Shown: one piece after another, positions 20,862 to 35,265 of the stretch | How positions within the stretch are numbered: position 1 is the stretch's first letter | Layout of the letters: the number at the start of each line of letters is the position of its first letter | Assembly (NCBI RefSeq): GCF_014267345.1 | Contig: NZ_JACMYD010000005.1 | Coordinates: 1 to 64,000, forward strand | From: Corynebacterium sp. zg-331 | GTDB taxonomy: Bacteria > Actinomycetota > Actinomycetes > Mycobacteriales > Mycobacteriaceae | Direction of reading: 5' to 3' | DNA length: 64,000 bases | Notes under the pieces: generated by a model | Told to the model about the DNA's origin: nothing | Databases searched by the model: none | Seen by the model: only the letters and a program-made list of their open reading frames with translations | Position numbers and translations under genes: made by a program

Positions 20862-22316
20862 CTATGGGGCCATAGTCACCCCGGTGTGCTCCTCGTCGCT
20901 GGCAGCGATCAGGGCCTCCGGGGTGGGCTCTTCATCCTCGTTGGCCATGAGGTCGTGGAGCATCTGCTGGCCTTGGTCGCGGAGGGCCTCGGCTTCTAGG
21001 CGGCTGATAGTGACAGGGTCGAGGCCCAAGCGTTCCCAGGTGACCCGGGAGCGCGCGGGGTACACCCCGGCCTGCACCAGGGACATCACCGATTGGGCGT
21101 CCGCCGCCCGCGTAGGGGTGGCAGGATCGCGCCACTGGGCCTGGAGACCTGCCATGCGCTCATCCGGGATGCCATCGCGGATGTGCTGGGCGATGCGAAT
21201 GACCTCGACCCACTCGGCGCCGTAGACGGCCTGGGCGCGCTCGGCGATCTTGACCAGCTCGGCTTCTCCGACGCGGATAGCGTCTGCCGAGGAGGGATTG
21301 TCATGGATGATGCCGAGTGCTCCAGGTGGGATGCCGGTTTCCCCGGAGACCAGCATGGCAATCGCCTTGAGCTGTTCGATGTGCGGGGCTGGGGAGGCCG
21401 CGCCGAAGGTTCCTACTTCAGGCTTCGCGCCGCCGTCCTCGGCGGGGCTGAGCACTAGCAGGCGGTTGAGGTAGGTGGTGAAGGTGTCCTGGTCGAAGTC
21501 CTCCGGCTGGGCGTTGAGGATGTAGCGCTGGGGGAAGGAGAAGAACTCCGCGGTTCCCTCCATCCGTAGCAGGGTGCGCGCGGCGGAATCCGTGGCATCC
21601 ATCAAGGGCCGCGAGATCCGCGACATGCCGTAACGCTTAGTCATACGAGGCCGATACGGCAGCATCACCATCGGCACCCGGCCCAGGCTATGCGGGCGAC
21701 GGTCGATGGCCACGGCGTTGCCGTCCTGCCAGCAGGTGACCACGCGGTCTTCCATCCACAGGCAGACCTGATCAGGCTCCACTCCGGGGATACCCGGGTT
21801 GATGGTCATGCCCGCGACGATGCGGCGAGCACGGTTGGACCACAAGGCCGAAGCCTCGGTCGCGGAGCGCGCGGAGATCACCACGTCCGGCTCACCGGCT
21901 AGCGGGTCACCCTGGGTGATCGTCACGAAGGCGACGCCGTGGATCATGGAGTCAATGTGGATCATCGAGGACTCGGTGAGCAGGTGGTTATCGGTGACGA
22001 TCTCCTGGACACCCTCATCCTGGTCGGCCTCGCCCCGAATCACAAAGCCCTGGAGGTCCAGGCGGTTATCGAGTACCTCGATGGCTTTGGCAGGCCATCC
22101 CAGCACCGTGGAGATACGCTCCATGACCGGCGGAATGGCAATCCCCATCCGGCCTGCGGCGCGCAGCGAGTGCTCACCGTCGTAGTACGCGCTGCGCAGC
22201 AGGTTCCGGCTGAGGTTGGCTGACCAGGTTGAGGCGAGCTGGCCCAGGAGCCGGGCCTCGACGGCATCCAGGCCCGGCGCGCTGAGGATGCGGTGGATCA
22301 TGTTTGTGGTGGTCAT
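20862..22316 (-). CDS. Portal protein (SPP1 Gp6-like)
   Basis: 484 residues. The region LRSAYYDGEHSL, then VRVGEAELVKIAERAQ and WEVIRIA-type helices, is typical of actinophage Gp6-like portal proteins that form the dodecameric vertex for DNA passage. It lies between the large terminase gene (4-bp ATGA overlap) and the MuF gene, the canonical order. Confidence 0.88.
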   Translation of the reverse strand: MTTTNMIHRILSAPGLDAVEARLLGQLASTWSANLSRNLLRSAYYDGEHSLRAAGRMGIAIPPVMERISTVLGWPAKAIEVLDNRLDLQGFVIRGEADQDEGVQEIVTDNHLLTESSMIHIDSMIHGVAFVTITQGDPLAGEPDVVISARSATEASALWSNRARRIVAGMTINPGIPGVEPDQVCLWMEDRVVTCWQDGNAVAIDRRPHSLGRVPMVMLPYRPRMTKRYGMSRISRPLMDATDSAARTLLRMEGTAEFFSFPQRYILNAQPEDFDQDTFTTYLNRLLVLSPAEDGGAKPEVGTFGAASPAPHIEQLKAIAMLVSGETGIPPGALGIIHDNPSSADAIRVGEAELVKIAERAQAVYGAEWVEVIRIAQHIRDGIPDERMAGLQAQWRDPATPTRAADAQSVMSLVQAGVYPARSRVTWERLGLDPVTISRLEAEALRDQGQQMLHDLMANEDEEPTPEALIAASDEEHTGVTMAP

Positions 22317-24067
22317 GAAAGTTTGATCCTCCTTGCTCCGCGCGGGCGGTGAGTGGTGACCTTGGGGTTGCGGAGGGCGATCTGGCGGCCCATGCGCGCG
22401 CCGACCATCGTGACGGCGTAGTCCACGCGCTTATCCGATGATCTGTTGATCTTGCCGAGGCCTACGCCCCATTGGTTGGGACGGCGGCGGGCGTTGTGGA
22501 CGTGGCGGCGCAACATGGGGTCACCGTCGTGGGTGAGGGTGCCCTCGTCGATGTCGGTGACGGTCTGCATCGCGGCATCCGTGAAGGCCCTGTTGCGGGC
22601 GACGGATCCTGGCTGGGAGGTACGCATGTCAAATAGGACGCTGTGGCCGCCTGCGCCGGGGGTGGCCCAGACTTTGAGTTTCCGTTGGAAGTCCCGGTGC
22701 CAGGCGTCGATGAGTGGCATCCAGTAGAGGTGCTCGGTCTCATCATCGGTCGCTGGTGAGGGATCAACCCCAAACCACGCCACGCGGTAGAAGGCGAAGG
22801 CCTCGCGGACCACGGCATCGACGACTTCGCGGGGTGCGAGCCAGTCCTCGCCGCGCGCGCCGTGCGGGCGCTGCCAACCACCAAGGCTGATGACGTGCCC
22901 GTCGGAGAGGCGGCACGCCGAAAGTGTGGTCGCGTCGCTGGATTTCGAGCAGTCTAAGAACATCGCTATTGGTTCGCCTTCGTCTACGACGATGTCCCGG
23001 CGCGCGCACCCGTCGAATGCTGCAGGGTCTACCCAGGCGTCCTCGGCGGTGGCTAAGCCGTTGAAGTAGAACCGGATGGTATCCGCCGCGCTGGTGCGGC
23101 TATCTGTAGCCTCCGCTGCGAGTCGATCCAGGTCTGCCCACGGTGCATCCGAGTATGCCTGGACTAGGCCGTTGCGTAGTTGCTCTGGCTTGGTGATGTC
23201 GAGACGGGGGTCTGCCTCCACGGAGTCGTAGAGGATGTCTGTACGCTCCGCGCCGTGTTCGGCGACCTGTTCCTGCCAGGCTTCAAAGGATTTCTCGGCA
23301 ACGGAATCTTGCCCCACCTGGTGGGCATTGGTCAGCTCCAGCAGGCGGGCTTGGATGGATGCGGGGGATTTGCCGACGTTGCGGCGTGCCACCTTCGCCA
23401 GACGTCCCCCGCCAGATGAGGCAGTCATGTGGTGGGTCTCGTTGAGCAGTACGGCAGTCGCCGGTGTGCCCTCTGTGGAGCGCTCCGAGGCGGTCAGCAG
23501 CTCGATGCGCGAGCCGGAGGGCAGCATGGTGCGTGTCTGGCCGATTTCTAGGCCGAGCGTGGCCCGCAGCCTGGGGCTGATCATCTGGTTGACCACTTGC
23601 AACACCTCCTTGGCCTGGTCTTGGGAGTTCGCTCCGATCTGGACTTTCGCCGCCCGGCGCGGGCGGCCTACCGGGTGGCCGTTGCTGATCTTCCCGGTGT
23701 ACTCGACCGGGCCACATAGCTCGGCGAGAGCGATGACCGCGGCGACGGGGTCTTTGCCCACGCCCTTGGCACCGCGCTTGATCCCGGAGCGGTAGCGCAG
23801 GCGGCCGGTGGCTGGGTCAAGTGCCCACCACATGTGGATGAAGCGGCGTTGCCCGGGGGTGAGCACGATAGGGTCGCCGGTCTGATGGTGGACGAGCCAG
23901 TGCTGGGCCCACAAGATGATCTGTGGGCCCAGGGAAGGCGGAAGGAGCGCAAGGCGCTCCGGTGCGGCCATCGGTAGCCCAGGGTCACCCGGCCACGGCA
24001 GCGTGGTCCATGCCCCTGTCTCGGCGTCGATCTGGTAGCCCGGCAGCAGTAGCTCAGGTCTACCCAT
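22313..24067 (-). CDS. Terminase large subunit
   Basis: 584 residues. The ATPase part has a Walker A-like loop RGAKGVGKD (about 99-106) and Walker B AVLLNETHH (about 205-212). The C-terminal nuclease part begins near IAMFLDCSKSSDATTL with a metal-binding aspartate. It packages phage DNA into the procapsid and cuts concatemers. Full length and apparently intact; overlaps the small subunit by 8 bp. Confidence 0.93.
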   Translation of the reverse strand: MGRPELLLPGYQIDAETGAWTTLPWPGDPGLPMAAPERLALLPPSLGPQIILWAQHWLVHHQTGDPIVLTPGQRRFIHMWWALDPATGRLRYRSGIKRGAKGVGKDPVAAVIALAELCGPVEYTGKISNGHPVGRPRRAAKVQIGANSQDQAKEVLQVVNQMISPRLRATLGLEIGQTRTMLPSGSRIELLTASERSTEGTPATAVLLNETHHMTASSGGGRLAKVARRNVGKSPASIQARLLELTNAHQVGQDSVAEKSFEAWQEQVAEHGAERTDILYDSVEADPRLDITKPEQLRNGLVQAYSDAPWADLDRLAAEATDSRTSAADTIRFYFNGLATAEDAWVDPAAFDGCARRDIVVDEGEPIAMFLDCSKSSDATTLSACRLSDGHVISLGGWQRPHGARGEDWLAPREVVDAVVREAFAFYRVAWFGVDPSPATDDETEHLYWMPLIDAWHRDFQRKLKVWATPGAGGHSVLFDMRTSQPGSVARNRAFTDAAMQTVTDIDEGTLTHDGDPMLRRHVHNARRRPNQWGVGLGKINRSSDKRVDYAVTMVGARMGRQIALRNPKVTTHRPRGARRIKLS

Positions 24068-24464
24068 AGATCGCCTCCGGGGCGATCGTCACGACCTCCG
24101 CGCCATCGTCGTGCTGCCCGGCGCGCTCCAGCTCAACGCGGACGCGGCGCCGCGCACCCTCCGTGGTCAGCAGGTCAGTCATCATCGAGAGGATCTGGGA
24201 GATCATCCCGGCGCGGGGTTTCTCGCGCCGCATCTCGTCGCTGAGGAGTGTGGCGCACAGCTGGGCGTGCGCCCAGTCCGATGGCTCGTAGAAAATCGCT
24301 TGGCCGGAGTGCCGTAGGCTGCGGTACCAGCGCTTTGCGGCGATGTGCCACGAGCGATCCTCCGCTGGTGGTCTAACCTGCGCCGCCCCGGCGATACGGG
24401 TGACCTCAGGGGTGACGTTACGTCTGACACGCTGGTCAGAGCGTTTCGGAACAGGGCCACGCAT
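24060..24464 (-). CDS. Terminase small subunit
   Basis: 134 residues, starting MRGPVPKRSDQRVRRN with a central helical part (WYRSLRHSGQ, SDWAHAQLCATLL, ISQILSMMTDLL). This is typical of actinophage small terminase subunits that recognise the packaging site. A good ribosome-binding site (AAGGAGGTGAT) precedes it. Confidence 0.85.
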   Translation of the reverse strand: MRGPVPKRSDQRVRRNVTPEVTRIAGAAQVRPPAEDRSWHIAAKRWYRSLRHSGQAIFYEPSDWAHAQLCATLLSDEMRREKPRAGMISQILSMMTDLLTTEGARRRVRVELERAGQHDDGAEVVTIAPEAIYG

Positions 24465-24479
24465 AGGATCACCTCCTTC

Positions 24480-24567
24480 AGAGCAACCCCGCTAGCGCGG
24501 GGAAAATCGCGATCCTGCCGTAGTGCGGCGGAGCGTCCGGGGCTCACCCCCGCTAGCGCGGGAAAAT
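24480..24567 (-). CRISPR. Two-repeat, one-spacer type I-E-like unit (or packaging-site repeats)
   Basis: Two 27-28-bp repeats (24480-24507 and 24541-24567) share the palindromic core CCCCGCTAGCGCGGG and end GGAAAAT. They are 61 bp apart, leaving a 33-nt spacer (24508-24540). 28+33 is exactly type I-E geometry. Read on the minus strand the first repeat ends GGGGGTGAGCC, like actinobacterial I-E 5' handles, and the second is degenerate at its 3' end, as terminal repeats are. No cas genes are nearby. The position between HNH and terminase genes also fits cos/terminase-binding repeats. Confidence 0.5.
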
Positions 24568-24636
24568 ACTTATCTACCAGCAAAAACGCTGAAACCCGTA
24601 CACAGTTTTAGGCCCTATGCCCTCCGGTAAGTCGGA

Positions 24637-25050
24637 TCAAGGGGAGGGGGTATCCCCCACCCCCTCCTGGCGGCGTTCCCACTCGGGGTAGTTGTAGTAG
24701 ATCGATCCATCGTCCCGGTAAAGGTAGCCAGGAGGCAGCTTGCCAGGCGTTGGATCAGACCCAGGCCGAGGAGCCGGTGGCCGTTTACGGGAGAACTTCG
24801 CGCGAGCGCGTTGCGCTTCCTCCTGTGTCTTGATCTTGTGGCACGATTCGCACACGGATTGGAGGTTGTGCACCTTGTCCGTGCCTCCCTCGGCCACAGG
24901 AATGATGTGATCCACCATCGTCGCAGTGACTGAGCAATATGGGCCCTGGATTTGGCACACCTTGCGATCCCTAGCAAGGATTCGTCGGCGTAGCTTCGTG
25001 GGCACACCACGAGAGCGAGGGCCAAGCGAGTTCGACGTGAATCCAGACAT
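24637..25050 (-). CDS. Phage HNH endonuclease
   Basis: 137 residues from ATG 25050, chosen for the perfect AAGGAGGTGA upstream. The HNH core is TMVDHIIPVAEGGTDK, then NLQSVCESCHKIKT, with zinc cysteines in CQIQGPYC and CESC. HNH proteins encoded next to terminase genes cooperate with terminase in cutting cos ends in several phages, which fits the location directly before the small subunit. Confidence 0.88.
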   Translation of the reverse strand: MSGFTSNSLGPRSRGVPTKLRRRILARDRKVCQIQGPYCSVTATMVDHIIPVAEGGTDKVHNLQSVCESCHKIKTQEEAQRARAKFSRKRPPAPRPGSDPTPGKLPPGYLYRDDGSIYYNYPEWERRQEGVGDTPSP

Positions 25051-25135
25051 CCGATTCACCTCCTTACACCAGGTGGTTGATGCAGGTGACCTAGTCACAC
25101 GCACATCATGCGAACAGCATAGCATTAGTGCTGTT

Positions 25136-25780
25136 TCACTTGGCACACTTTGCACCTTGACCAGCAAAAACGCGCTTCTGTCGCAGCAATGAACGCACCT
25201 CATCAACCCACACATGGATCACACCATGATGAACCTCAGACGTCACGATCTCATCGCGCGCCCAACGCCACAGCGTCGCACGCGAACACGCAAAGCCTTG
25301 ACGTGAAAGCAGCTGAGCTGCTGCTGCACAAGGCATCGACACCGAAGCCCGCGCTACCAGCACCTGCGGAGACTCACCCTCACGGCGCACCAGTGGTGCA
25401 GGATCCACCAGCCGCCGCAGCGCGGCCACAGGAGGCACGATCTCCCCCAGAGCATCCGGTGCCCATGAGGCGGTGGCCATCTGCCCCAGGTGGATACGCA
25501 TCCACCTAGCCCGAGGTACAAGACCCCGCACCCCAGGTGGAGATACCCCCCGGTCATCCGCCAACACCGCAGACCAACCAAACACCGGGGGCTCTAAACC
25601 ACGCTTGACCTCTAGGACATCGGCCACCAAGGGCACGCGAGAACCAGGGGATGTACGACCACCTACCCGATCACCAGCAGCGCGCGGTGTCGGCAGCAAC
25701 ATCCCATCGAGAAACGGCACCAGCCGCTCTATATCCACCAGAGCAGATTCAAGAACATAGCGATCAGCATCATCGATCAT
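25136..25780 (-). CDS. Hypothetical phage protein with C-terminal helix-turn-helix
   Basis: 214 residues. A possible DNA-binding helix-turn-helix lies at about 155-180 (AAQLLSRQGFACSRATLWRW). The N-terminal 120 residues show no recognised domain. It overlaps the upstream gene end by 11 bp and precedes the HNH gene. A regulatory role for late genes is conceivable but not shown. Confidence 0.65.
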   Translation of the reverse strand: MIDDADRYVLESALVDIERLVPFLDGMLLPTPRAAGDRVGGRTSPGSRVPLVADVLEVKRGLEPPVFGWSAVLADDRGVSPPGVRGLVPRARWMRIHLGQMATASWAPDALGEIVPPVAALRRLVDPAPLVRREGESPQVLVARASVSMPCAAAAQLLSRQGFACSRATLWRWARDEIVTSEVHHGVIHVWVDEVRSLLRQKRVFAGQGAKCAK

Positions 25781-31417: not shown

Positions 31418-31557
31418 AGTATGCAACGTGCGTTACATTTCGCAAATATACATATACAGCGCGTCATGCGCAACAGTGCCTGGAAAATTGCCTCCCCAAC
31501 AGGGGAAATGTGGCTTCGCATGTTGCGCACACACCTCAGTGCGTGTACATTTGCGCA
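31418..31557 (+). promoter_or_regulatory. Divergent lysis-lysogeny control region with two operator-like sites
   Basis: Two related sites are visible: TGCGTTACATTTCGCA (31429-31444) and TGCGTGTACATTTGCGCA (31540-31557), both TGCG...CGCA palindromes. The leftward promoter is TTGCGA (31440-31445 complement), a 16-bp spacer and CATACT (31418-31423 complement), overlapped by the first site. The rightward promoter is TTGCGC (31523-31528), 18 bp and TACATT (31547-31552), which would start at or next to the repressor ATG and is overlapped by the second site. Confidence 0.6.
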
Positions 31558-31559
31558 GC

Positions 31560-32102
31560 ATGGAACACACGAAGTGGTTCACCCGACTCACCAACGGAGC
31601 ATCAGCGCTGGCAGCCTCAAAGCAGGCATCGCCGCAGCTCAACAACGCCACACTTTCCCGACAGCTCAACCGAGGAACCTTCAGCGCCGAAGTAGTCATC
31701 GCGCTCGCACGCGGCTACAACGCCTCCCCCGTAGAAGCCCTCGCACAGACTGGCTACCTGCGCACCTCTGAGGCGACAGGCCAGGCCCCCGAGGCCATCG
31801 CGCAGCTACTCAGTGATCAGGATCTGATCCGGGAGCTGGCGCGGCGGATCGACGATGATGCCAGCGCGTGGAGCGACACCTTCGACCACACCCTCCAGTC
31901 CGCCACCACAAGCGTACCCGCTGCGGAGGATGATTTGGCCGCTCGGCGGGAGGGAAAACCCGAGGCGAAATCCGAGACAGGCGCCCCGGCGGCGGCTTAT
32001 GATGATATGAGCGATGATGAGCTGATTGATCGGATTAACGCTGGTCAGGAGCGGATCGTCGCGCAGAAGCGGACTCCCCCGCTTGAGGAGGAGTGGACCT
32101 AG
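31560..32102 (+). CDS. Prophage repressor (CI-like), probably leaderless
   Basis: 180 residues from ATG 31560, with no ribosome-binding site and a promoter ending a few bases upstream, so a leaderless transcript is likely. Residues 1-65 look like an XRE-type helix-turn-helix (SPQLNNATLSRQLNRGTFSA). The rest is an acidic linker and helical tail (DDMSDDELIDRINAGQERIV). It is followed by an ImmA-type protease gene, the standard partner that cleaves such repressors upon damage. Confidence 0.75.
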   Translation: MEHTKWFTRLTNGASALAASKQASPQLNNATLSRQLNRGTFSAEVVIALARGYNASPVEALAQTGYLRTSEATGQAPEAIAQLLSDQDLIRELARRIDDDASAWSDTFDHTLQSATTSVPAAEDDLAARREGKPEAKSETGAPAAAYDDMSDDELIDRINAGQERIVAQKRTPPLEEEWT

Positions 32103-32822: not shown

Positions 32823-33218
32823 CTATTCAGATAAACTAAACGGAAATATAGCTTTCACCACAATACATGCTACAACAAATATAATCATCGCTATCACGAT
32901 AAAGCGAAGCGCTAGATCTAAAAAGGTGCATATTTTTGATACCCACGCATGATCTTTGCAGTAGGCGGCTATTCTTTCTTCTTCTGTGGGACTGTTGTAT
33001 TGCCTTACAGCACGGTAGGCGATATAGTCAAAAAATGGGTTTACGGATAGTAGTGAACTCAGCGCCGCACCACCCGGTATGGAATCAATCCCACCAGATG
33101 ATACGGACAAAGATGCAGTCTGCGCTGACCTATCCACCTCCTCACCTTGGCTATATAGTGAATCAAACTCACCTTGGCTAACCTGGTAGCTTTCGCCACA
33201 GGGGTCATCTGCGCTCAT
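32823..33218 (-). CDS. Hypothetical C-tail membrane protein paired with an ImmA-like protease
   Basis: 131 residues. A soluble polar N-terminus (about 1-55), a helical part and a C-terminal transmembrane segment (about 104-126, RFIVIAMIIFVVACIVVKAI). ATGA overlap with the ImmA-like gene upstream. AT-richer than most of the prophage. It may be a substrate or anchor of that protease; no function is known. Confidence 0.65.
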   Translation of the reverse strand: MSADDPCGESYQVSQGEFDSLYSQGEEVDRSAQTASLSVSSGGIDSIPGGAALSSLLSVNPFFDYIAYRAVRQYNSPTEEERIAAYCKDHAWVSKICTFLDLALRFIVIAMIIFVVACIVVKAIFPFSLSE

Positions 33219-33724
33219 GGACGTAACCCGAGATTCTTGATACGGAACTCAACAGAATCAAGAGAAACTTGCAACCGCTTAGCAATACTTAGATCATCAA
33301 AGCCAGAATCAACGAGATGTGCCATCACATCGCGAGGCATCAGCAAAGACGCCGCGAAGCCATTAGCAAATATCTCTTCTTCATCGGTTCCGCAGGAAGC
33401 AAGGTATGCTCTTTTGAGAGCGTACTTATCACATGCGGGTGGAGCCATTTCCTTGCGTTGAAAATAATGCCCTAGTTCATGCGCTACCGTGAAGCGCTGC
33501 CGCACGGGGGCATGTTGCTCATTGATGAATATGTCTGGTGCATATTCCGCGCCGCGCTTGATGATGTAACCCGAGATACCGGCGGCCATTGGAGCCTTAT
33601 AGACATTGATGCCTAGATCACGGGCAATAATGATAGGATCCACAGACATAGCACCCGGCATGCTGTCATACCATCGTTCATCAAGAACCTTTTGAGCCGC
33701 AGCTTCGTAGCTCACTACCATCAC
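33215..33724 (-). CDS. Second ImmA/IrrE-family metallopeptidase
   Basis: 169 residues with HELGH at 82-86 (TVAHELGHYFQRKE), the downstream glutamates DEEEIFANGFAASLLMP, and a C-terminal helix-turn-helix-like segment LSIAKRLQVSLDSVEFR. This is the full IrrE/ImmA plan and closer to textbook than the gene at 32119. It is not next to a repressor but coupled to a tail-anchored membrane protein gene, and sits between integrase and immunity. Possibly a defence or exclusion module. Confidence 0.85.
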   Translation of the reverse strand: MMVVSYEAAAQKVLDERWYDSMPGAMSVDPIIIARDLGINVYKAPMAAGISGYIIKRGAEYAPDIFINEQHAPVRQRFTVAHELGHYFQRKEMAPPACDKYALKRAYLASCGTDEEEIFANGFAASLLMPRDVMAHLVDSGFDDLSIAKRLQVSLDSVEFRIKNLGLRP

Positions 33725-33776: not shown

Positions 33777-34955
33777 TCAGCCCAAGATTTTTTGGTTCAC
33801 CTGGTCCAAGATCTGATCTCGAGCTGCTTTCGAGTACCGCATGTACACCTCGGTGATCGTGCGTAGATCTCGCTGGCCCAGGATCTCCCCCACTGCGGGG
33901 ATCGGCATGCCTGCCTCCGCGAGCGTGGTGATCAGCCAGACTCGCCCGTAGTGCGGACTCAGCCGCACGTCTGCATACCCGGCGCGTTGTTTGGCGCGGG
34001 TGAGGGTGGTTCTGTAGGAGGTGTCCATGACGATGTTGCCTTCTGCGGTGGCGCAGAGGGGTGCGTCGGGGTGGTCGCGGGTGATGTGGGTGAGGTGCCA
34101 GCGGATGTCGTTGTGGAATCGGGCGAAGATGGGGACGTCGCGGTAGCCTGCGGTGGTTTTGGTGGTGTCTTTGCGGATCATGCCGCCGTCTTTTGATCGG
34201 TAGGCGTTGCCTTTGATGTGGATGGTGATGGTGTCTCCATCATCGGTGATGTCGCGGCGGCGGAGGCCGAGGGCTTCGCCGATGCGGAGGCCGTGGAAGA
34301 AGGTGAGGATGGCGATGATTTTGTAGCGGCCGTCGATGCGGGGGTGGCGGTGGTCAAGGGCGTCGGTGATGGCGTTCATGACGTCGGCTTCGGGGAGGTC
34401 TTTGCGGTGGGGTGTGGGGCGTTTGCGGGCATCGGGCACGCTGACGGGGTTGGTGGTGATGAGGTCGCGGTCGACGGCGGCTTGGATGGCGGTGTGGAGG
34501 CGTAGGTAGGCGGCGCGGTTGGTGGGTGGGGTGTCGAAGGTGGTGGTAATGGCGTCCCACCAGGAGGCGACGTCGCGGCGGGTGAGCCGGGAGAGGGGTA
34601 TGGCGCGGAGTTTGGCGGCATCGCCGGTGGTGTCCAGGATGCGCCAGCGGAGGGTTTTCTCGTAGTTTTCCCAGGTGGAGGGTTCTAGGGCTGTGGTGCC
34701 TCGGCGGCGCATGTCGAGCCATTTTGTGAGCCATTCGCCGACGGTGGTGTCGGCGGTGCGGGTTGAGGATTCTGGTGGTGTCCAGGCGTCGAACTCGATG
34801 AGTTTTTCTTGTTGGCGTAGCCAGCCTGCGGCGTCGTCACGGGAGTGGTAGGTCTGGGGTGCTTTGTGGCGGCGGCCATCGGGCCCGGTGTAGCGGGCGC
34901 GGTAGCGCCCGGAGGGGAGCTTGGAGATCTCGCCGAAGGAGCGTCGCTGTGCCAT
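33777..34955 (-). CDS. int: Prophage tyrosine integrase
   Basis: 392 residues. An N-terminal arm-binding domain (about 1-65, with GRYRARYTGPDGRRHKAPQT) and a core-binding domain (about 70-170) precede the catalytic domain: Arg224 (HGLRIGEALGLR), His335 and Arg338 (SPHYGRVW), Gln361 in place of the usual His (LGQRDLRTITEVY) and the nucleophile Tyr371. It catalyses site-specific recombination at the tRNA-Ala site 237 bp upstream. Full length and apparently intact. Confidence 0.95.
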   Translation of the reverse strand: MAQRRSFGEISKLPSGRYRARYTGPDGRRHKAPQTYHSRDDAAGWLRQQEKLIEFDAWTPPESSTRTADTTVGEWLTKWLDMRRRGTTALEPSTWENYEKTLRWRILDTTGDAAKLRAIPLSRLTRRDVASWWDAITTTFDTPPTNRAAYLRLHTAIQAAVDRDLITTNPVSVPDARKRPTPHRKDLPEADVMNAITDALDHRHPRIDGRYKIIAILTFFHGLRIGEALGLRRRDITDDGDTITIHIKGNAYRSKDGGMIRKDTTKTTAGYRDVPIFARFHNDIRWHLTHITRDHPDAPLCATAEGNIVMDTSYRTTLTRAKQRAGYADVRLSPHYGRVWLITTLAEAGMPIPAVGEILGQRDLRTITEVYMRYSKAARDQILDQVNQKILG

Positions 34956-35187: not shown

Positions 35188-35191
35188 TGTG

Positions 35192-35205
35192 GTGGAGCTA
35201 AGGGG
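35192..35205 (+). repeat. Right attachment core in the tRNA-Ala 3' end
   Basis: GTGGAGCTAAGGGG, identical to 837-850, covers the discriminator base, the 3' acceptor strand and the first T-stem bases of the tRNA. Recombination here keeps the tRNA intact because the phage copy replaces the lost 3' end. Confidence 0.8.
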
Positions 35206-35265
35206 AATCGAACCCCTGACCTTTGCATTGCGAACGCAACGCTCTACCAACTGAGCTATAGCCCC
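35193..35265 (-). tRNA. tRNA-Ala (anticodon CGC)
   Basis: 73 nt on the minus strand. Acceptor GGGGCTA pairs with TAGCTCC including the G3:U70 pair that identifies alanine tRNAs. D-arm GCTCAGTTGGTAGAGC, anticodon loop TTCGCAA (CGC at 34-36), T-arm AGGGG-TTCGATT-CCCCT, discriminator A. CCA is not encoded. It is the integration site of the first prophage. Confidence 0.95.

Follow-up and report, generated by a model that had tools for sequence, protein, structure and literature searches.

A type I-E-like repeat-spacer-repeat unit between the cos flank and the terminase genes of a Corynebacterium prophage

The prophage and its packaging region

The window, that is, the whole stretch of 64,000 nt analysed here, contains a complete-looking prophage of approximately 34.4 kb. 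Its integrase gene (33777–34955, minus strand) is followed by a tRNA-Ala gene (35190–35265), in which the likely attachment core GTGGAGCTAAGGGG (35192–35205) is found, with a second copy of the core at 837–850. Because this core lies in tRNA-Ala, the possibility that the prophage had inserted into a CRISPR array was rejected. The terminase large subunit TerL (22313–24067, minus strand; PHROG 9, E = 3e-70) and small subunit TerS (24060–24464, minus strand; Pfam Terminase_7, E = 4e-43) were confirmed by profile matches, in agreement with the original prediction, which placed a repeat-spacer-repeat unit ahead of the terminase genes; the best PHROG match of TerS carries the label minor tail protein. 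On one side of this unit, the prophage encodes endolysin, tail, tape measure, head and portal proteins, TerL and TerS; the other side is occupied by an HNH endonuclease adjoining cos (24637–25215, minus strand), a repressor-like gene, a metallo-protease and the integrase, and then tRNA-Ala. Like known mini-arrays, the unit resides in a viral genome, as judged from the prophage gene order, the likely attachment core and the lack of any cas match among the 20 prophage proteins (a subset of its proteins) that were scanned with PADLOC. The metallo-protease (33215–33724), which adjoins the integrase, has CapP as its best PADLOC match (E = 1e-23) and, together with the repressor-like gene (31428–32102), may act as a phage switch or form a pair linked to defence.

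When read on the minus strand and framed by the 28-nt repeat of the host, the unit (24480–24568) consists of a 33-nt spacer between two 28-nt repeats. The core CCCCGCTAGCGCGGG occurs in two exact copies (24487–24501 and 24548–24562) whose starts are 61 nt apart, which upholds the predicted 61-bp period with its 28-nt repeat and 33-nt spacer. This is the spacing of mini-arrays, which have one or two spacers between repeats, and it contradicts the partner-free arrangement (no second repeat within 100 bp) of Racr or solitary repeat units. From base composition, 0.0014 exact matches to the core would be expected on both strands of the 64,000-nt window. With up to three mismatches allowed, the window yielded 15 matches against 8.5 expected, a count reached in 1 of 100 shuffles, and the two copies in the unit were the only exact ones among them.

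The first repeat, R1 (TATTTTCCCGCGCTAGCGGGGGTGAGCC, 24541–24568, minus strand), is identical to the host repeat GTGTTCCCCGCGCTAGCGGGGATGAGCC at 23 of 28 positions, with changes at positions 1, 2, 3, 6 and 22, and the handle GGTGAGCC directly follows its hairpin. The second repeat, R2 (ATTTTCCCCGCGCTAGCGGGGTTGCTCT, 24480–24507, minus strand), is identical at 22 of 28 positions, with changes at positions 1, 3, 22, 25, 26 and 28; two of these fall within the first 21 nt, and the handle part, changed at four of seven positions, is degenerate. Both the minus-strand handle and the degenerate last repeat had been foreseen, and both stand when measured against the host repeat; the span assigned to the unit had the correct start at 24480 and ended at 24567, one base short of the end of R1. 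The spacer (CCGGACGCTCCGCCGCACTACGGCAGGATCGCG, 24508–24540, minus strand) has 33 nt when the 29th repeat position is counted with its 32 nt. The position of Cas6e cleavage in type I-E systems is known from E. coli, and the predicted mature crRNA (24487–24547, minus strand) would contain an 8-nt handle, the 32-nt spacer and a 21-nt stem part. Its length of 61 nt equals that expected of the host crRNAs.

The unit borders on phage sequence flanking cos (24569–24616, minus strand), of which positions 24576–24616 match bases 1–40 of the phages Poushou, Colleen, TouchMeNot and Arianna; the first 60 bases are identical among these four phages. Phage records of the Poushou group usually begin at the cohesive end, so the left end of the virion DNA is placed at 24616. 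We infer that this is its first base and that the unit lies approximately 50 nt from it. On the minus strand from 24616 to 24464, the inferred left end is followed by 47 nt of the cos side, R1, the spacer, R2, the ribosome-binding site GAAGGAGGTGATCC and the terS start. The last base of R2 is separated from the terS start codon by 15 nt, and the end of the R2 hairpin (24487) by 22 nt. The cos flank also includes one copy (24576–24589) of a 14-nt direct repeat, ACCAGCAAAAACGC, the other copy of which (25160–25173) is located near the 3' end of a frame at 25136–25780, upstream of the HNH gene.

The core of the cos flank is also present in the viral contig L132 and in the genus locus L127, whose sequences are the same, and a genome of the genus carries 2688 bp of DNA with 100% identity to phage Poushou, for which C. 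vitaeruminis is the recorded host. The hairpin words of the unit are absent from the first 1500–3000 bases of Poushou, Colleen, TouchMeNot and Arianna and from 10 kb of L132 (= L127). They were not found at 13 TerS loci of the genus either (L119–L131, approximately 1.5 kb on each side; 11 further genomes; two weak matches), and nine more distant viral TerS loci have no such repeats, with unrelated hairpin-like words in three. A cos-site element would be expected to be conserved among phages of the same cos or terminase, and in those that were read the unit is not. The sole second copy that we found is an IMG/VR record of the same prophage, identical over 12,092 nt, in collections that may omit near-identical records. 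As these comparisons indicate, the unit is an insertion between the conserved cos flank and terS in one phage lineage.

The type I-E system of the host and the divergence of the unit

The host genome (2.16 Mb, 24 contigs) encodes a complete type I-E operon, cas3-cas8e-cas11e-cas7e-cas5e-cas6e-cas1e-cas2e, on another contig than the prophage. The core is found in this genome in 45 exact copies, including the two in the prophage. Among the other 43, 41 belong to two arrays, whose period is 61 bp apart from one interval of 63 bp, with 27 copies on contig 12 and 14 on contig 19; a further copy lies 404 bp beyond the contig 12 array and one is beside the cas genes on contig 22. Both arrays employ the 28-nt repeat given above, have spacers of 33 nt except for a single one of 35 nt, and end in intact repeats. 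The type I-E-like nature ascribed to the unit is favoured by this comparison, that is, by 41 array repeats with an identical core and a complete cas operon. The unit therefore shows two further features of mini-arrays, namely similarity to the host repeats (15-nt core identical; 23 and 22 of 28 positions overall) and a matching cas operon in the host. The core is present as repeat pairs in at least 10 of 242 genomes of the genus, the source genome included, and in the other nine, among the matches listed, these are runs of ordinary arrays. We conclude that the unit is almost certainly derived from CRISPR and matched to the type I-E system of the host.

Several other features of the host loci were observed. 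On contig 22 (L011:8316), what comes after the cas operon is a leader-like stretch with one exact core only, and the full arrays are on other contigs, so the cas-side array has apparently been reduced to a single repeat. This lone cas2-side repeat and R1 have GTATT plus GGTGAGCC in common, which is a hint at the origin of the unit and a pointer to that origin only. The lone repeat on contig 12 (L009:16197–16224), 404 bp past the point where the array ends, is fully intact. In the contig 19 array (L010:6441–6535), two adjacent spacers are identical and the 35-nt spacer is close by.

Differences from the host repeat are unevenly distributed over R1 and R2: they affect 4 of 44 positions in the crRNA-forming and Cas6e-hairpin parts as opposed to 7 of 12 outside them (Fisher p = 0.0008), in a partition that follows known type I-E processing and was chosen after the sequence had been seen. 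Since the last repeats of both host arrays are intact, the decayed end of R2 was not inherited from the end of a host array. Folded singly, R1 and R2 each give the expected simple stem (16 and 11 of 200 shuffles, respectively, were as good); folding of the whole unit, as 96 nt, predicts pairing of R1 with R2 instead of two hairpins (z = -1.5; 14 of 200 shuffles were as good). A search of the sigma-70 type found no promoter consensus, and a search of the unit against Rfam produced one sub-threshold match alone (15.7 bits versus 50). When the flank of the unit was compared with the host leaders, p was 0.0007 for C12, 0.44 for C22 and 0.51 for C19. A first alignment had suggested that a host CRISPR leader was carried along with R1, and this claim was dropped because the same flank is found in Poushou, which has no array. 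No leader of the kind that adjoins the first repeat in host type I-E arrays was found here, the flank being phage DNA common with Poushou.

Target search and possible roles of the unit

No protospacer with up to three mismatches was detected in the genome of the host and 241 other genomes of the genus, nor was any found in the same 242 genomes with positions 6, 12, 18, 24 and 30 freed. Two patterns run against viral contigs matched the spacer only in the IMG/VR copy of this prophage, and blastn of the spacer against phages and plasmids (E up to 10) returned matches at E = 0.5 or worse only. When genome contigs were searched with a 20-base seed pattern, three partial matches emerged, which differ from the 32-nt guide at 8, 9 and 12 positions. 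The nearest of these (L167), located in an uncultured actinobacterium, could pair with 22 of the first 23 nt, and three overlapping frames examined across it gave no Pfam match. A rough estimate is that a collection of this size would hold a few such seed matches, and we take the three to be due to chance, less surely so in the case of L167. As a control, the 39 spacers of the host arrays were compared with the same phage collection, which yielded repeat-driven matches and one marginal match, apparently to a spacer (E = 0.04); the missing target is therefore weak evidence. Spacers of mini-arrays match a related virus but not their carrier; that of the unit does not match its carrier, and our searches found no virus that it matches. 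Of the 39 host spacers, even the closest has 9 mismatches to the window, so there is no sign that the lysogen currently needs an anti-CRISPR.

The sequence features described above suggest that the unit probably works as a guide array, i.e., a leaderless phage mini-CRISPR that employs the Cas6e and Cascade of the host, probably for inter-phage exclusion. Its transcription, cutting by Cas6e and loading into Cascade we infer as follows. The unit would be read on the minus strand from the packaging-side transcript, and both repeat hairpins would be cut by the host Cas6e. The product would be a single 61-nt crRNA, made up of the handle GUGAGCCC, a 32-nt guide and the R2 stem, which would be loaded into the host Cascade and most likely used for the exclusion of a rival phage or plasmid bearing the target of the spacer. 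Since a single lysogen combines the one-guide array with a complete cas operon of the matching type and two host arrays, both the processing of the guide and exclusion among phages could be tested directly in this strain.

The position of the unit between cos and terS also raises the question of whether guide release is linked to late transcription. With considerable doubt, one may picture the mini-array as part of the 5' untranslated region of the packaging operon. By cutting the R2 hairpin, 22 nt upstream of terS, Cas6e would then release the guide and at the same time give the late mRNA a new 5' end. The layout behind this proposal is the succession of cos flank, guide unit, a strong ribosome site and terS, in which no terminator was found. 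If it is true, guide production would be tied to late expression and the late operon could sense a type I-E host. The position suggests such a tie, and the coupling is speculation.

Other explanations of the unit can be evaluated against the same data. An RNA anti-CRISPR of the Racr kind, whose hairpins would draw Cas6e and Cas7e into non-productive complexes regardless of spacer content, is unlikely here, even though the host has a matching type I-E system, the spacer has no known target, and two working type I-E Racr candidates are described in Camara-Wilpert 2023 (PMC10651486). For a solitary repeat, two repeats at the exact crRNA spacing and the retention of the crRNA-forming parts would be superfluous, and the host spacers, none of which comes within 8 mismatches of the window, create no present need for protection; moreover, the published finder of solitary repeat units excludes clustered repeats and treats them as arrays (PMC10651486). 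The unit could also be a relic without function: recombination would have brought part of a host array to the cos side, where it is now in decay. This would agree with the 5 and 6 of 28 bases that differ from the host repeat, with the failure of our searches to find a target, a host leader or a promoter, and with hairpins that, folded separately, only modestly beat their shuffles. We nevertheless regard it as improbable, given that decay is concentrated outside the crRNA-forming parts, that R1 and R2 each still fold to a simple stem and that the unit leaves a tight packaging region unbroken.

Terminase-binding sites of other phages lie between the cos end and terS, and the unit, with the inferred cos end (24616) on one side and terS on the other, occupies just such a place. 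The rival reading offered with the original prediction, under which the repeats are two palindromes at cos that bind terminase, is nevertheless very hard to sustain, because relatives with the same cos flank (Poushou, Colleen, TouchMeNot and Arianna, over their first 1500–3000 bases, and L132/L127) or with a related TerS (the 13 genus loci, over approximately 1.5 kb on each side) do not have the repeats, and because the core and its period are those of the host CRISPR. That reading had been expected to show itself in virion ends at the site together with repeats conserved among phages whose hosts have no type I-E system: the former nearly holds, with an inferred end approximately 50 nt away, and the latter fails, the repeats being absent from relatives. 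Degenerate repeats and a spacer without a full target are features of CreR-type RNAs, and the unit resembles these in both respects. A Cas-dependent regulator of this type, in which a short guide partially pairs with a host or phage promoter, is still highly improbable: no seed match was found in 18 kb of sequence that includes the cas operon, the best seed matches in the window and in two other array stretches pair at no more than 20 of 32 positions, and the rest of the genome was covered by the search with up to three mismatches. Of these explanations, a guide array served by the host type I-E system remains the one we prefer.

Related units in other phages

Mini-CRISPR arrays of bacteriophages and archaeal viruses are reportedly treated in Faure 2019. 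According to several papers, phage mini-arrays lack a host leader, their repeats are similar to those of the host, and their one or two spacers are directed at related viruses (PMC6858448, PMC8616872, PMC11656645, PMC7099407, PMC9944170), and these leaderless units have a single spacer with two repeats or with one full and one truncated repeat (PMC6858448, PMC8616872, PMC11656645, PMC7099407). The mini-CRISPR arrays described there (Medvedeva 2019, PMC6858448; PMC11656645) resemble the prophage unit in having one spacer, two host-like repeats, no cas genes and no host leader shown; the difference is that most reported spacers match related viruses, whereas no target was found for ours. Single repeats can act as RNA anti-CRISPRs, and such Racr or solitary repeat units are likewise prophage-borne mimics of the host repeat in hosts of the matching subtype, but have one repeat in place of two at array spacing (PMC10651486). 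Mini-arrays are thus known already, and the prophage unit belongs among them by features other than target matching. What sets it apart is its location in the cos–terS gap, immediately before terS and at a distance of approximately 50 nt from the inferred end of the virion DNA; this placement next to cos, probably within the packaging operon leader, is the unusual part. A figure legend on viral CRISPR loci in Koonin and Makarova 2024 names TerS and TerL (PMC11656645), so closeness to terminase genes, as far as a legend can tell, may not be new.

Two scans of viral sequences gave, among the matches listed, 166 loci, from which 43 distinct two-repeat units were kept after leaving out 3 loci without a strict pair, 105 with three or more hairpins or pairs in the vicinity, 6 that were unorientable or at a contig end and 9 with a repeated spacer. 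Among these 43 listed units, R1 keeps its handle and R2 is degenerate in 27, both handles are kept in 16, and the reverse was not seen; 30 units came from the scan that required the R1 handle, and the remaining 13 give 8, 5 and 0, respectively. A degenerate last repeat is common in ordinary arrays too, so the pattern of the viral units is a likeness and not a proof. Three of the viral loci (L047, L059 and L064) have the same hairpins and trailer with wholly different spacers. Comparison of the 43 listed spacers with the collected loci gave five matches, three of them within the same locus (1, 4 and 6 mismatches) and two, each with 6 mismatches, in two copies of one contig type. A terminase neighbourhood as a general rule was considered and rejected, as 93 viral units vary in position and, judged by eye, in the kind of neighbour. 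A pattern with a type I-E hairpin directly before a terS-like start matched this prophage alone, along with three sites without such a gene.

Using the repeats of the host arrays, we identified an unannotated type I-E-like unit in seven isolated phages of Corynebacterium xerosis (12 records), namely Stiles, StAB, SamW, Lederberg, Bran, Dina and Troy, mostly of Samwavirus. It has three repeats and two spacers and is flanked by the lysis genes and the integrase side (L241–L247, locus positions approximately 2490–2660), with a terminator-like hairpin and a T run directly after it. We found no publication on these units, nor any on a corynephage mini-array, including one combined with terminase, as judged by titles and abstract openings. 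The C. xerosis units resemble the prophage unit in being carried by corynephages, in their type I-E-like repeat (CCCCGCGCCAGCGGGG hairpin) and in a last repeat that follows ATTTT or ATCTT and has a degenerate handle. They differ in the number of repeats and spacers, the lysis-integrase position, the trailing hairpin and their near-invariant spacers. The spacers are nearly identical across all seven phages, which is unlike an arms race, and nothing else in the phage collection matched them convincingly. These seven isolated phages represent laboratory-grown material for the question of guide release. The innermost pair of the first hairpin is C-G in Stiles and A-T in the other six, a paired change that keeps the stem, and Dina has one broken pair in the last hairpin.
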